Positions 2,480 to 17,633 of a stretch of DNA of 64,000 nt are shown in pieces; position 1 is the stretch's first letter, and each line of letters opens with the position of its first letter. The DNA lies in assembly GCA_026418695.1 (NCBI GenBank), contig JAOAAU010000006.1, positions 1 to 64,000 on the forward strand. The letters are read 5' to 3'. The DNA comes from Clostridia bacterium. GTDB taxonomy: Bacteria > Bacillota > Clostridia > Acetivibrionales > JAFADI01. The position numbers and the translations under genes are program-made. The notes below the pieces were generated by a model that saw only the letters and a list, made by a program, of their open reading frames with translations, was not told the origin of the DNA and searched no databases.

Positions 2480-2808
2480 TAGATGATCAAATCTCCAAAA
2501 CAGGTCGATGAAAAGTCTATAATATAGAACTATAATAGCAATGCGAAATTTCATGAAATTTTTCGTATAATCTATTCTGCTCAGAATATTAAAAATTCTG
2601 GGCATTTATATTACTATTGAAGAAATTGTCTATCAGACGAAGTATATACAAAGCACGAATTATTGACTAGAATACTTCTTAACTACATGTTTTGTATTGA
2701 AGAATATTTAATATTATCTTCTGATTAAGTACCTTGCTTAATTGAATTAATAATGCAAGGTATGCATTTGTCTGTATCTGTATAATGAAACTGAAAGGAG
2801 GGATATGC
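2480..2808. other. Intergenic region with weak hairpins and an inverted repeat
   Basis: This gap holds no gene that I can support. It contains a 16-bp palindrome at 2546-2561. A weak terminator-like hairpin lies at 2578-2604 (10-bp stem with one G-U pair, then a short T-rich run). An 8-bp inverted repeat (2730-2737 with 2755-2762) sits about 50 bp before the AraC-type gene and could be a regulator-binding site. Confidence 0.45.
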
Positions 2809-3702
2809 ATGGACTTTCTTGGAAGAATGACTGAGGTAATAAACTATATTGAAGATCACATATCTGACGATATTGATTTTAGTAGTGTTTCAAAAATTGT
2901 CTGTTGCGGTGTATATCAATTCGGTAGGATATTTTCGTATGTTGTCGGAATGCCTTTATCTGAATATGTTCGTCGCAGGCGTTTATCACTTGCAGCATTA
3001 GAACTTCAAACAGGCAACAATAAAGTCATTGATGTAGCACTGAAGTATGGTTATAACTCACCTGAAGCATTTTCCCGTGCGTTTCGCGATATGCATGGAA
3101 TAGCACCTAAAGAAGCATGCACTTTAGGTGTCAAGCTAAGATTGTATCCTCGTATCACCTTTCATATTTCAATTAAAGGAGATGCAGATATGGAATATCG
3201 AATCGAAGAAAAAAATGAAATCACAGTAGTTGGAGTTGTTCGAAATCTTGGTAGATGGACACTTTCTACTGATGAAAAAAAGTCAAACTTAACACGGATT
3301 AGGGAAATCTGGGATGAATACCTTGGCGGTGGAATGAATGAGGTCATAGGAAGCAAATATGAACTATATCGCCCGCCATTTTGGCAAATCGGAGTCACGC
3401 ATACAAAGGATAATGGTGAAACTATCCTTGCTATCGGCGCGGAATCAGATGGTAATCAATATAAGGAACTGGATACATATATAATACCTGCAAGCATATG
3501 GGCGGTGTTCACAGGGAAAGGTGCTGTTAATAATCCTGACCATCCCTTACATGGTTCACTTATGACAAGGATAATGTCAGAGTGGTTACCTTCAAGTGGA
3601 TATGAAAAGTCTATGAATTGTGAAATTGAAATTTATGGACCCGGTGACGCTTTTGAAGATAGCTATACCTGTGAAATATGGATTCCTGTGAAGAAAAAAT
3701 AA
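2809..3702 (+). CDS. AraC-family regulator with GyrI-like effector-binding domain
   Basis: This 297-residue cytoplasmic transcription factor carries an AraC/XylS helix-turn-helix pair at its N-terminus (about 8-105; the motif DVALKYGYNSPEAFSRAFR is diagnostic). A GyrI-like/Bacterial transcription activator effector-binding domain follows (about 130-295, ending in CEIWIPVKKK as is usual in this family). Such proteins usually sense amphipathic or drug-like small molecules. An ATG exists at 2785, but AAAGGAGG at about 2794-2802 is ideally placed for the ATG at 2809, which I chose. The gene stands alone; an inverted repeat at 2730-2762 upstream may be its operator. The regulated gene is unknown. 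Confidence 0.88.
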   Translation: MDFLGRMTEVINYIEDHISDDIDFSSVSKIVCCGVYQFGRIFSYVVGMPLSEYVRRRRLSLAALELQTGNNKVIDVALKYGYNSPEAFSRAFRDMHGIAPKEACTLGVKLRLYPRITFHISIKGDADMEYRIEEKNEITVVGVVRNLGRWTLSTDEKKSNLTRIREIWDEYLGGGMNEVIGSKYELYRPPFWQIGVTHTKDNGETILAIGAESDGNQYKELDTYIIPASIWAVFTGKGAVNNPDHPLHGSLMTRIMSEWLPSSGYEKSMNCEIEIYGPGDAFEDSYTCEIWIPVKKK

Positions 3703-4148
3703 AATCAGTTCAACAAGTTAAGTGTATTAAAGTTAAAAGATACTTATGCAGCAGCGAAACAAACAATTGTTTGTTTCGCTGCTGCATAGTTAAGTTCAAC
3801 GAACCTAACCCATCAGACTGTGTGGAGATGCAGAAAATTTTGAGACAATGATGAACTATCTCAAATTAATAATTATAAGGAATACCCGAAATAAATGAAG
3901 GTGTACTTAAACGGCATAAAATAGATAAAAGTACTATAAGTATGTAACTACAACAAATTCAGTATAAACCTTCATACTTCCCTTTTTCCGAGCTTTATCC
4001 CTGAAGGATTCTTTGGATCCGTCAAGGAATACAATCAAATTGTCAAATTTCAAGCTTACTGGTATCATAATATTGAAAGAACCGACAGGTAGGCCTAAAG
4101 GAGCTGTGGTTCCTGGATACAGACAAAAAAAGGAAAGATTTGAAATAG
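3703..4148. other. Intergenic region with long perfect palindrome
   Basis: This 446-bp gap holds a 44-bp perfect palindrome (listed separately) and no convincing gene. A possible decayed reading frame at about 3990-4140 contains a stretch vaguely like the end of an IS3-type transposase (YWYHNIERTD in one frame, then KGAVVPGYRQ in another). The match is too weak to annotate as a pseudogene. Confidence 0.4.
3745..3788. repeat. 44-bp perfect palindrome
   Basis: Bases 3745-3766 are the exact reverse complement of 3767-3788, with no central spacer. The arms are CAGCAGCGAAACAAACAATTG-like. It lies 42 bp after the AraC-type gene and could form a strong hairpin in RNA, but no T-run follows on either strand, so it is not a standard terminator. 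Confidence 0.9.
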
Positions 4149-6803
4149 ATGATGAAAAAATTAGTCATTGGAATATTAGCACATGTAGATGCGGGCAAGA
4201 CGACATTATCTGAAAGTATGCTTTATCTGAGCGGCAAGATTGGAAAGTTGGGAAGGGTAGACAACAAGGATGCCTATTTGGATACCTATGAGCTGGAAAG
4301 GGCACGAGGAATTACCATTTTCTCCAAACAGGCCATATTTGAAACAGGGGAGACTCAGATTACCTTACTGGATACCCCGGGTCATGTAGATTTTTCGGCT
4401 GAAATGGAGAGGACACTTCAAGTGCTGGATTATGCCATTTTAGTGATCAGCGGTGCGGATGGGGTGCAGGGGCATACCAAAACATTATGGCGACTGCTTG
4501 ACCTGTATCAAATCCCTGTCTTTTTATTCGTCAATAAGATGGATCAGAACGGAACCGATAAGGACAAGTTAATAAAGGAAATGAAAAAACAGCTGGCGGA
4601 TGGATGCATTGAATTTGGACAAGTTGAGGCAGACGGTTTTTACGACCAACTGGCCATGTGTGATGAAATCATGATGGATGCCTACTTGGAAACAGGTCGT
4701 GTTGAAACCGAGCAGATTAAAAAAGCTGTCTGTGCGCGCAAAGTATTTCCGTGCTTTTTCGGTTCCGCTTTAAAATTAGAGGGCATTGAAGATTTTATGC
4801 AGGGCATAGTAAAGTATACCAGTATACCTCGCTATTCCGATGAATTCGGGGCTAAAATATTCAAAATAACAAGAGACGAGCAAGGAAACCGTCTTACACA
4901 CATGAAGCTTACAGGCGGAAAGCTTAAAGTGAGAGATGTCTTGACGAATGGCGTCTGGGAAGAGAAAGTGAATCAAATACGTATCTATTCAGGACAGAAA
5001 TTCCAGGCAGTGAATGAGATAGAAGCAGGTTCTGTATTTGCAGTGACAGGACTCAGCCAAACCAGGCCTGGAGAAGGCTTGGGAATAGAAAAAGCTTCAG
5101 ATACACCGGTATTGGAACCCGTTCTAGCCTATCAGATTATACTTCCGGAAGGCTGTGATCCACGAGCGATGATGCCCAAGCTGCGTCAGATCGAAGAAGA
5201 GGAGCCGGAGCTTCATATTGTCTGGGATGAGCAACTGCAGGAAATTCAGGCACAGATCATGGGAGAGGTGCAGATTGAGATTCTGCAGAGCCTTATACAA
5301 AGCCGCTTTGGCGTTGAGGTGGCCTTCGATGCCGGAAGGATTGTATATAAAGAGACGATTGCCAATGTGGTAGAAGGGGTAGGACACTTTGAACCATTGC
5401 GGCATTATGCGGAGGTTCATCTGTTATTGGAGCCGGGTGAGCCGGGAAGCGGTCTGCAGTTTGGGGTGGAATGCAGCGAGGATGTGCTGGGAAAAAGCTG
5501 GCAAAGGCTTGTTTTGACCCATCTGGAAGAAAAAACTCATAAAGGGGTTCTAACAGGCTCAGCAATTACAGATATGAAAATTACTTTGGTTTCGGGCAGA
5601 GCACATAATAAGCATACCGAAGGCGGTGATTTCAGAGAGGCTACCTACCGTGCGGTGCGACAGGGTTTGAAGGAGGCAGAATCCGTATTACTGGAGCCTT
5701 ATTATGCCTTTCAGCTGGAACTGCCTGAAAAAATGGTAGGAAGGGCGATGACTGATGTCGAGAAAATGTACGGCACCTGTGAAATATCACAGACAGACGG
5801 CGAGACGGCGGTCCTCGTGGGAAGTGCGCCTGTAATTACCATGAGGAATTATCAGAAAGAGGTCGTTGCCTATACCAAAGGTCTTGGCAGACTGTTTTGC
5901 ACCCTGAAAGGGTACGAACCATGCCATAATGCAGATGAGGTCATTGAAAGTATTGGGTATGATTCTGAAAAAGACATTGGAAATCCGACCGGTTCCGTAT
6001 TTTGTACCCATGGTGCAAGCTTTTTGGTGGATTGGGATGAGGTAAAGGACTACATGCATGTTGAAAGCTATCTTCAGAGTAAAGAGGGTTTTTCAGAGGA
6101 AACAGCCCCGAACCGTGCCTCGTATACAGAGGAACGGTCGATCAGTTTAGAAGAGATTGACCAAATTATCAACAGCACCTTCTATGCCAATCAGGGAAGG
6201 AAATCTGCCTGGAAAAGACACAGAACAACTCGCGACAGTTATTATGAACCGTCTACTTATGTTTACAGACAGAAGGAAATCAAAGAAGAATATCTCCTTG
6301 TGGATGGCTACAATATTATCTATGCATGGCCTGAACTGAAAGGGCATGCAGATGAGAACATGGACGGTGCCAGGATGAAATTGCTCGATACACTAAGTAA
6401 TTATCAGGGAATCCGAAAATGCCGGATTATCGTTGTGTTTGATGCTTACCGTGTTCAGGGACATCTTGAGGAAGTCATCGACTACCATAATATCCATGTG
6501 GTATATACCAGGGAAGCACAAACGGCGGACCAGTATATTGAAAAATTTGCCCATGATAATCAGAAAAAATACAATATCACCGTTGCAACATCGGACGGTT
6601 TACAGCAGATTATCATCAGGGGGGCAGGATGTTCCTTATTATCTGCCAGAGAGCTGAAAGCTGAGGTCGACGGGGCTAACGAAAGAATAAAGCAGGAATA
6701 TCAGGAAGTACGGGGAAGAGACCGTAATTATATCAAAGATGCATTGTCTCAGGAAGCAAAACAGCAGATGGAGGAACTGACTAAAAAAGAGAATGGTCAG
6801 TAA
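4149..6803 (+). CDS. TetM-like ribosomal GTPase fused to a YacP/Rae1-type NYN nuclease domain
   Basis: This 884-residue cytoplasmic protein has an EF-G/TetM-like body. The GTPase motifs are AHVDAGKTT (about residues 11-19), RARGITI, DTPGH and NKMD. EF-G domains II-V follow to about residue 640, as in ribosomal protection proteins. A C-terminal NYN domain of the YacP/Rae1 family (about 715-865) begins LLVDGYNIIYAWPEL and keeps four acidic residues in the expected motifs: D719, D765 (VVFDA), D794 (TADQYIE) and D816 (ATSDG). TetM itself is about 640 residues, so the extra 240 are the fusion. TetM-type proteins act at the ribosomal A site, and Rae1 cleaves mRNA there, so a ribosome-linked RNase role is inferred. 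Tetracycline resistance is possible but not shown. ATG 4149 or 4152 is used behind AAAGGAAAG. Confidence 0.88.
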   Translation: MMKKLVIGILAHVDAGKTTLSESMLYLSGKIGKLGRVDNKDAYLDTYELERARGITIFSKQAIFETGETQITLLDTPGHVDFSAEMERTLQVLDYAILVISGADGVQGHTKTLWRLLDLYQIPVFLFVNKMDQNGTDKDKLIKEMKKQLADGCIEFGQVEADGFYDQLAMCDEIMMDAYLETGRVETEQIKKAVCARKVFPCFFGSALKLEGIEDFMQGIVKYTSIPRYSDEFGAKIFKITRDEQGNRLTHMKLTGGKLKVRDVLTNGVWEEKVNQIRIYSGQKFQAVNEIEAGSVFAVTGLSQTRPGEGLGIEKASDTPVLEPVLAYQIILPEGCDPRAMMPKLRQIEEEEPELHIVWDEQLQEIQAQIMGEVQIEILQSLIQSRFGVEVAFDAGRIVYKETIANVVEGVGHFEPLRHYAEVHLLLEPGEPGSGLQFGVECSEDVLGKSWQRLVLTHLEEKTHKGVLTGSAITDMKITLVSGRAHNKHTEGGDFREATYRAVRQGLKEAESVLLEPYYAFQLELPEKMVGRAMTDVEKMYGTCEISQTDGETAVLVGSAPVITMRNYQKEVVAYTKGLGRLFCTLKGYEPCHNADEVIESIGYDSEKDIGNPTGSVFCTHGASFLVDWDEVKDYMHVESYLQSKEGFSEETAPNRASYTEERSISLEEIDQIINSTFYANQGRKSAWKRHRTTRDSYYEPSTYVYRQKEIKEEYLLVDGYNIIYAWPELKGHADENMDGARMKLLDTLSNYQGIRKCRIIVVFDAYRVQGHLEEVIDYHNIHVVYTREAQTADQYIEKFAHDNQKKYNITVATSDGLQQIIIRGAGCSLLSARELKAEVDGANERIKQEYQEVRGRDRNYIKDALSQEAKQQMEELTKKENGQ

Positions 6804-16484: not shown

Positions 16485-16667
16485 AAGCATGCCTCCTTGT
16501 GTTTGCTGAATATCGGATCACCAAATATATAGTAACACACTGAAAATGCTTTAGAAACATTTTAGTGATGTGGAAATAAATCACAATATCATTATCAAAC
16601 CTGTTTCATCATTGACTTCATGAAAAATCTCAGATAACATAGAACTAATCAAATAACCAATCTCCGA

Positions 16668-16738
16668 GTATGGAAGACCTAATGTCCGCTTGACGATGGA
16701 CTCCATACCGATAGGGAAAGTTGGGAAACTGATTTTCC
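16668..16738 (+). ncRNA. Structured leader of the tup-moa operon (riboswitch candidate)
   Basis: The region before tupA can fold. A hairpin pairs 16668-16674 with 16702-16708 (7 bp), then 16684-16687 with 16698-16701 (4 bp), leaving a 9-base bulge. A second weak stem pairs about 16715-16719 with 16734-16738. Moco/Tuco RNA motifs are known before molybdate and tungstate genes, but I could not match the consensus with certainty. No terminator follows, so control, if any, would be at translation. Confidence 0.3.
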
Positions 16739-16763
16739 TTCCATTGTGAAAAGGGGGTAACGC

Positions 16764-17633
16764 ATGTCAAGAAATTCTACAAACCATGTCCAAAAAGGTA
16801 TGTTTGCTTTCATTAAAAAAATATTCACTGCTTCACTACTTTTACTTATTTTCATACTTTCAGCCTGCGGCGCAGGACCTGCAAATCAGAGTCTGACGCT
16901 GGCAACAACTACCAGTGTGAATGATTCGGGTCTGATGGAATATTTAAAGCCTGTTTTTGAAAAGGACAGCGGAATCAATCTGAAGGTTGTTTCCCATGGG
17001 ACGGGACAGGCGGTCAAAACCGGACAGGACGGCAATGCGGATGTGCTTCTTATCCATGATAGGGCCTCCGAAGAAAAGTTTGTGTCTGATGGGTATGGCT
17101 TGAAAAGAATAGAGCTGGCCTACAACTACTTTATTATTGTTGGCCCCAGGGAGGATCCTGCAGGAATAAAGAAAGAAAAACTAACGGCAGCACAAGCCTT
17201 CGCGAAAATTGCTGATAGCAAAGCCCCATTCATCTCAAGAGGAGATGATTCCGGAACCAATAAAAAGGAATTGGCTGTTTGGAAGTCTAATGGCTTAAAA
17301 CCTGCGGGAGGCTGGTATATTTCCGCGGGTAAAGGGATGGGGGACGTGTTGTCCATGGCTAGTGAAAAAAAGGCCTATACTCTTACAGATAAAGCCACTT
17401 ATCTGTCCATGAAGGATAAACTGGAACTTCAGATTGTTATCAGTGAATCAAAGGATTTACTGAATCAGTATACAGTGATTGCAGTAAACCCTGAAAAACA
17501 TCCGGATGTGAATAATAAGGATGCGGATAAATTCATCCAGTGGATCACTTCGGAGAAGGTATTGAAAATGATCAATGATTTCGGTAAGGATAAGTATGGG
17601 GAGAGCTTGTTTATCTCAAATTATAAAAAATAG
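16764..17633 (+). CDS. tupA: Tungstate-binding lipoprotein TupA
   Basis: This 289-residue extracellular lipoprotein (hydrophobic helix, then lipobox LSAC with C35) captures tungstate for the TupABC importer. The diagnostic anion-binding motif ATTTSVNDSGL follows the mature N-terminus, and RGDDSGTNKKEL is the second conserved ligand loop. Both are typical of TupA rather than ModA. The ATG at 16764 has AAGGGGG about 7 bases upstream. It heads a tight rightward run (tupB 6 bp later), so tungstate uptake is co-expressed with cofactor synthesis. Confidence 0.93.
   Translation: MSRNSTNHVQKGMFAFIKKIFTASLLLLIFILSACGAGPANQSLTLATTTSVNDSGLMEYLKPVFEKDSGINLKVVSHGTGQAVKTGQDGNADVLLIHDRASEEKFVSDGYGLKRIELAYNYFIIVGPREDPAGIKKEKLTAAQAFAKIADSKAPFISRGDDSGTNKKELAVWKSNGLKPAGGWYISAGKGMGDVLSMASEKKAYTLTDKATYLSMKDKLELQIVISESKDLLNQYTVIAVNPEKHPDVNNKDADKFIQWITSEKVLKMINDFGKDKYGESLFISNYKK

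Follow-up and report, generated by a model that had tools for sequence, protein, structure and literature searches.

Domain IV of TetM and of EF-G enters the decoding site, or A site, of the ribosome. The same site is the place of action of Rae1 (YacP), an endoribonuclease that may reach it more readily on stalled ribosomes (PMC6613710). What does a protein do that carries both kinds of module in one chain? The question is raised by a gene in a stretch of 64,000 nucleotides of the Clostridia bacterium contig JAOAAU010000006.1 (the window), which encodes a GTPase resembling TetM continued by a Rae1-type NYN domain. Its architecture was published in 2015, when Tet proteins of ten Clostridiales were found to carry a YacP-like NYN domain and a new resistance mechanism was suggested for these Tet-NYN proteins (Atkinson 2015, PMC4342817). 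We found no experimental or biochemical work on any fusion member in the literature; an earlier mention is possible in the main Rae1 papers (EMBO J 2017; RNA Biol 2018, on distribution).

Our results differ from the 2015 account in several respects. There the proteins were classed within the Tet subfamily, whereas here the bodies form a separate clade without the Tet loop; and instead of ten species, at least 84 of the 243 Clostridia genomes that make up our class sample have the fusion, which displaces free Rae1. New, then, are the position of the body outside the protection proteins, the fusion as the genome's only Rae1, and an ancestral gene slot that has been emptied and still holds remnants.

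Architecture of the fusion protein

The open reading frame is intact, with an ATG start and no internal stop, and 48 aligned homologues are 59-86% identical to its product over the full length. All six Pfam domain matches exceed the curated cut-offs (Table 1). Five EF-G domains are present together with intact G motifs, as in the EF-G superfamily: the P-loop AHVDAGKTT, DTPGH and NKMD are conserved, and D14, G16, K17, T18, T19, D75, T76, P77, G78, H79, N129, K130 and D132 are invariant across the 49 aligned sequences.

Table 1. Coordinates of the fusion gene and of its parts in the window.
Feature	Position	Strand	Basis
Complete gene, translational-GTPase::Rae1 fusion, 884 aa	4149..6803	+	ORF call, Pfam, full-length homologues
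GTP-binding domain (GTP_EFTU), residues 5-224	4161..4820	+	Pfam, E 4.9e-52
EF-G-type domain II (EF-G_D2), residues 234-306	4848..5066	+	Pfam
EF-G-type domain III (EFG_III), residues 323-393	5115..5327	+	Pfam
EF-G-type domain IV (EFG_IV), residues 396-510	5334..5678	+	Pfam, E 6e-19
Domain IV tip loop III, residues 483-496, GRAHNKHTEGGDFR, near-invariant	5595..5636	+	Alignments
EF-G-type domain V (EFG_C), residues 513-594	5685..5930	+	Pfam
Conserved extension, residues ~595-637, ...SVFC.HGA.F.V.W.EV..YMH	5931..6059	+	Alignments
Variable linker, residues ~638-714, mostly predicted disordered	6060..6290	+	Alignments; pLDDT < 50 at 644-671 and 677-710
NYN_YacP (Rae1) nuclease domain, residues 716-878, with D719, D765, D794 and D816	6294..6782	+	Pfam, E 2.4e-56

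The NYN_YacP match scored 190.7 bits against a cut-off of 24.6. Compared by sequence with solved structures, the NYN segment matched Bacillus subtilis Rae1/YacP alone (5mq8/5mq9; E 2.9e-26 for 5mq9), with which it shares the NYN fold, the conserved aspartates and the TAD/TSD motifs. An AlphaFold model of the segment (pLDDT 81.6) gave the same answer in Foldseek, where three Rae1 chains were the only matches below 1e-3 (best E 7.2e-12). The full model consists of an EF-G-like body, as judged by Foldseek, and the NYN domain joined by a low-confidence segment, and the placement of the NYN domain relative to the body in it is unreliable (pTM 0.58).

These data bear out the sequence-only reading in its description of the protein. 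The five EF-G domains and NYN_YacP in Pfam, together with the match to Rae1 by sequence and by fold, place a GTPase body and a Rae1-type nuclease in one chain; the four acidic residues that it named are numbered exactly and do not vary among 60 fusion homologues; and its statement that such fusions exist in Clostridia agrees with the 84 class genomes that carry one. An assembly artefact is ruled out by the single open frame in each of these 84.

The GTPase body and tetracycline resistance

The resistance mechanism suggested in PMC4342817, in which a tetracycline ribosomal protection protein would have gained an RNase, is favoured by the likeness of the body to TetO and TetM. These are its closest solved structures, share the five-domain EF-G-like organization and are represented by plasmid Tet proteins at ~31% identity; in addition, the best NCBIfam model for the body is tet_protect (NF012153), and public records for Agathobacter and Ligilactobacillus members bear the labels TetM, TetW, TetO and TetS. 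However, the tet_protect score of the fusion is 435.8 bits against a cut-off of 775, whereas genuine protection proteins in the same survey scored 853 and 1001 bits. TetM and TetO, which are often mobile and lie above the resistance cut-offs, also have neither the NYN domain nor the SVFC..G..F.V.W.....MH extension. This extension is common to fused and unfused bodies; the unfused ones end there, and the fusions continue with linker and NYN domain.

A further difference lies at the tip of domain IV, whose loops in Tet proteins are treated in PMC4342817. In our alignment, Tet(M), (O), (S) and (W) have YYSPVSTPADFR as their loop III. The drug-contacting YSPVSTPADFR is replaced in every fused or unfused member of the clade, most of which have RAHxKHTxGGDFR. 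Except for a few divergent ones, the fusions stay close to RAHxKHT[E/Q/D]GGDFR[E/Q]ATYRAVRQGL, with H486, H489, T490 and G492-R496 as invariant columns, and the unfused relatives are much alike. The histidine of RAH aligns with the tip histidine of EF-G in GSYHEVDSSE. A FastTree phylogeny of the bodies points the same way: one clade (support 0.972) holds the protection proteins together with closer relatives of theirs, and another (0.987) the fused and unfused bodies.

By these sequence comparisons, the body is not a ribosomal protection protein but a sister of the TetM/TetO group that stands outside the resistance clade. Clade, loop and scores led us to reject tetracycline resistance as the main role, and a resistance role for the fusion is unlikely. 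A protection protein with an added RNase is accordingly a very improbable reading, the more so as conserved neighbours marking a resistance or transfer module are missing, as the gene is single-copy and alternates with Rae1, which is a housekeeping pattern, and as one fusion genome (G135) also encodes, in a separate gene, a Tet(M)-class protein that scores 1308 bits, above the cut-off of 1100. 'TetM-like', the term of the sequence-only reading, is thus right for structural kinship and wrong for clade. Its suggestion of action on drug-bound ribosomes, like a TetM-type function of the protein, is not supported in view of the same evidence, namely the absent drug-dislodging loop of TetM, the position outside the resistance clade, scores below curated cut-offs and the Tet(M)-class gene of G135.

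Other labels in this region of the superfamily concern related proteins. Clade members at L171 (6001-7920) and L177 (2622-5423) are annotated as tetracycline resistance (TetM/TetW/TetO/TetS) in Ligilactobacillus salivarius and Agathobacter rectalis. The protein from L. salivarius scored 378 bits against the 775-bit cut-off. Since members of the group bear such labels, resistome counts may be inflated. The EF-G2 paralogue of Bacteroides thetaiotaomicron (8dmf; the same sequence is TetQ in 7uvp) is likewise an EF-G paralogue labelled tetracycline resistance, but it has no nuclease and belongs to a different subfamily. A further TetM-related group (L237, L242-L245), with tip loops such as HHTVHTHPLDF, belongs neither with EF-G nor with the fusion bodies; two of its members were scored and both fell below the resistance cut-offs.

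Fused and free Rae1 in Clostridia

NYN_YacP was present in 161 of the 243 class genomes, with exactly one copy above the cut-off in each; apparent second copies in three genomes were sub-threshold partial matches of 21 bits. It was absent from the other 82, which indicates that Rae1 itself is dispensable over evolution. Assigned by open-frame length, the 161 comprised 84 fused forms, 72 free forms and five broken or contig-edge frames (in four of these five genomes a body was present, on the contig of the NYN or on a different one), and not one genome had both forms. If genomes were independent, the probability of this lack of overlap would be 1e-18, a figure that kinship makes too small. The fusion was found across more than 20 families. 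Both forms occur within four families and even within two genera (g2 and g24), revealing swaps within a genus. Each of the 14 fused genomes outside the class, from a phylum-wide sample, also had a single NYN, as did eight genomes found by way of named relatives (Desulfosporosinus and Alkaliphilus among them), where the fusion is that single NYN. Collectively, the fusion is the only Rae1 of the window's genome, and the fused form took the place of free Rae1 in about half of the Clostridia having Rae1; the sequence-only reading had overlooked both this uniqueness and the replacement. Sister species of one genus with free or fused Rae1 offer natural experiments on Rae1's choice of ribosomes, which is still ill-defined.

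The ancestral locus records this exchange. Free Rae1 is a protein of ~170 aa encoded in Clostridia between rlmB and sigH; its gene adjoined sigH in 19 of 20 loci and lay directly between the two genes in 16. In the 15 fusion genomes with both rlmB and sigH visible, including that of the window (L198, G000:C88), no NYN was encoded between them. The fusion gene does not share the rlmB-rae1-sigH synteny, being located elsewhere and having no fixed neighbours; synteny is no functional criterion. We searched the rlmB-sigH intervals of fusion genomes with 36 free Rae1 proteins, with 100 dinucleotide shuffles per interval as control. Decayed rae1 remnants were detected in six intervals (G022, G097, G075, G136, G116 and the window's own genome, G000), all on the coding strand only and all better than the best of the 100 shuffles. 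The clearest, in G022, comprises 98 aa at 46% and 44 aa at 64% identity, with frameshifts and stops; the other five are shorter matches, and a seventh interval (G139) gave a borderline one.

In the window's own genome the remnant lies between sigH and rlmB at 849-1226 of L198 and is short (24 aa, 32 bits). It contains NTIVSRLDPELFEKLDNIRKVKF followed by a stop, which is the C-terminal signature of free Rae1; as this signature is missing in the fused NYN, the remnant is not a copy of the fusion. It is a decayed free rae1, an identification based mainly on position, strand and the precedent of G022. Displacement of free Rae1 by the fusion, an orthologous displacement, is therefore well supported, and the resident rae1 lost its purpose once the fusion arrived. 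This means that free Rae1 became dispensable; that the fused domain performs the same reaction on the same targets does not follow.

Several loci may bear on the origin of the fusion and on its possible fission. In G140, a free Rae1 in the rlmB-sigH slot (L083, 5396-6004, plus strand) has an NYN that groups with the fused clade, making its lineage a candidate donor of the NYN domain. Two divergent fusions, L233 (G001) and L232 (G198), stand at the base of the clade; as L233 has an NYN that falls among free Rae1 proteins, a second, independent fusion event is possible. G209 combines an unfused body (L228) with a free NYN (L078, 5483-6004, minus strand) that falls inside the fused clade and lies away from rlmB, which suggests fission of a fusion or an exchange; a body remnant was sought beside this detached NYN and not found.

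Proposed action of the fusion and its spread

The catalytic columns are the same in fused NYN and free Rae1 and are invariant in the latter too. In contrast, two features typical of free Rae1, namely R118 and a C-terminal helix of the E.[hydrophobic]RR type, are lost or relaxed in the fused form. R118 (B. subtilis numbering) was found in 36 of 36 free proteins and in 21 of 63 fused domains, and the C-terminal motif hydrophobic-E-x-hydrophobic-basic-basic in 28 of 36 versus none of 63; part of the fused group is missing the helix altogether. Loss-of-function suppressor alleles isolated in B. subtilis Rae1 include R166P, a change within this C-terminal motif (PMC6613710). On the simplest reading, the GTPase body would have taken over a docking task of the C-terminal helix. 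The changes in R118 and the helix may also mean a different substrate recognition, and the retained active site could act on other RNA, e.g. tRNA or rRNA.

A rival reading holds that the two modules act separately. Ten class genomes have an unfused body beside a free Rae1, and five have one but no Rae1 of any kind, which indicates that the body is functional by itself. It might then be an independent EF-G-like factor of back-translocation, recycling or rescue, with the NYN as a passenger that acts separately and whose ratio to the body the fusion fixes. The unfused bodies of Clostridia and Lactobacillaceae, the tip residues of domain IV, which are equally conserved in unfused and fused bodies, and the separated parts of G209 agree with this. 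It is nevertheless unlikely: the fusion is stable across its many families, the decay of the resident rae1 after its arrival argues that the NYN is no silent passenger, and the NYN has lost features of free Rae1, which would be expected after docking had passed to the body.

Rather, the protein is probably a GTPase-targeted, ribosome-dependent mRNA endonuclease, the Rae1 of its host in fused form, which displaced free Rae1. The sequence-only reading had suggested an action on ribosomes, and the comparative data point to a Rae1 function there. We infer RNase activity, ribosome docking, cleavage in the A site and a GTP-controlled order of events, and likewise selectivity among ribosomes. In such a scheme, a flexible linker of ~75 residues would join an EF-G-like GTPase to a nuclease of the NYN/PIN fold with a four-aspartate metal site. 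The body would most likely dock where translation factors bind, on ribosomes whose A site is accessible; upon GTP hydrolysis, its release or a domain movement would let the tethered nuclease enter and cut the A-site mRNA, much as free Rae1 acts in B. subtilis. Because both modules use the same site and cannot fill it jointly, sequential action is to be expected, and the long disordered linker also suggests that the body acts before the nuclease.

A more specific form of this scheme is put forward tentatively. The body would select ribosomes with an empty or blocked A site, GTP hydrolysis would swing domain IV out and hand the codon to the Rae1 domain, and the module would have spread horizontally through Clostridia, repeatedly replacing a free and unguided Rae1. 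If the GTPase does control the cut, the protein would be a GTP-gated, ribosome-associated mRNA nuclease; we know of no earlier description of such an enzyme. The proposal offers a likely function for a large protein group from gut and soil, in which some members are labelled tetracycline resistance in databases.

Sequence identities support the horizontal element. Between the window's genome and Desulfosporosinus, the fusion is 84-85% identical and EF-G only 72-73%; among order-mates the relation is reversed, with 75-81% for the fusion and 81-85% for EF-G. The fusion gene has therefore moved horizontally. A comparison of neighbours between genomes revealed no conserved operon partner. Horizontal transfer and the architecture of a ribosome-directed RNase would also suit an effector of stress response or phage defence, one that attacks mRNA on ribosomes and halts translation. 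This is the least probable of the readings considered, and highly unlikely: the gene had no PADLOC match, on which ground a defence system was rejected, conserved defence neighbours are absent, and a single copy is strictly exchanged with the housekeeping Rae1.

A mobile or phage element was likewise rejected: some plasmid records with an NYN match are pieces of chromosome deposited as plasmids, among them one with an rlmB-NYN-sigH operon of Clostridioides difficile. One C. difficile 'plasmid' of ~97 kb in PLSDB (L176, NZ_CP149721.1) contains rlmB, rae1, sigH, tuf and ribosomal protein genes and looks like such a piece; eleven PLSDB records similar to it were matched.

A regulatory RNA upstream of the fusion gene was sought, and no Rfam match lay close to the gene. 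An inverted repeat, ATGCAGCAGCGAAACAAACAATTGTTTGTTTCGCTGCTGCAT, at ~3746-3787 of the window, between an AraC/GyrI-like gene (2785-3702) and the fusion gene, is probably a terminator. Farther along the window, a Molybdenum/tungsten cofactor riboswitch (RF01055, 63.7 bits) occupies 16650-16772 on the plus strand, just upstream of a gene starting at 16764.
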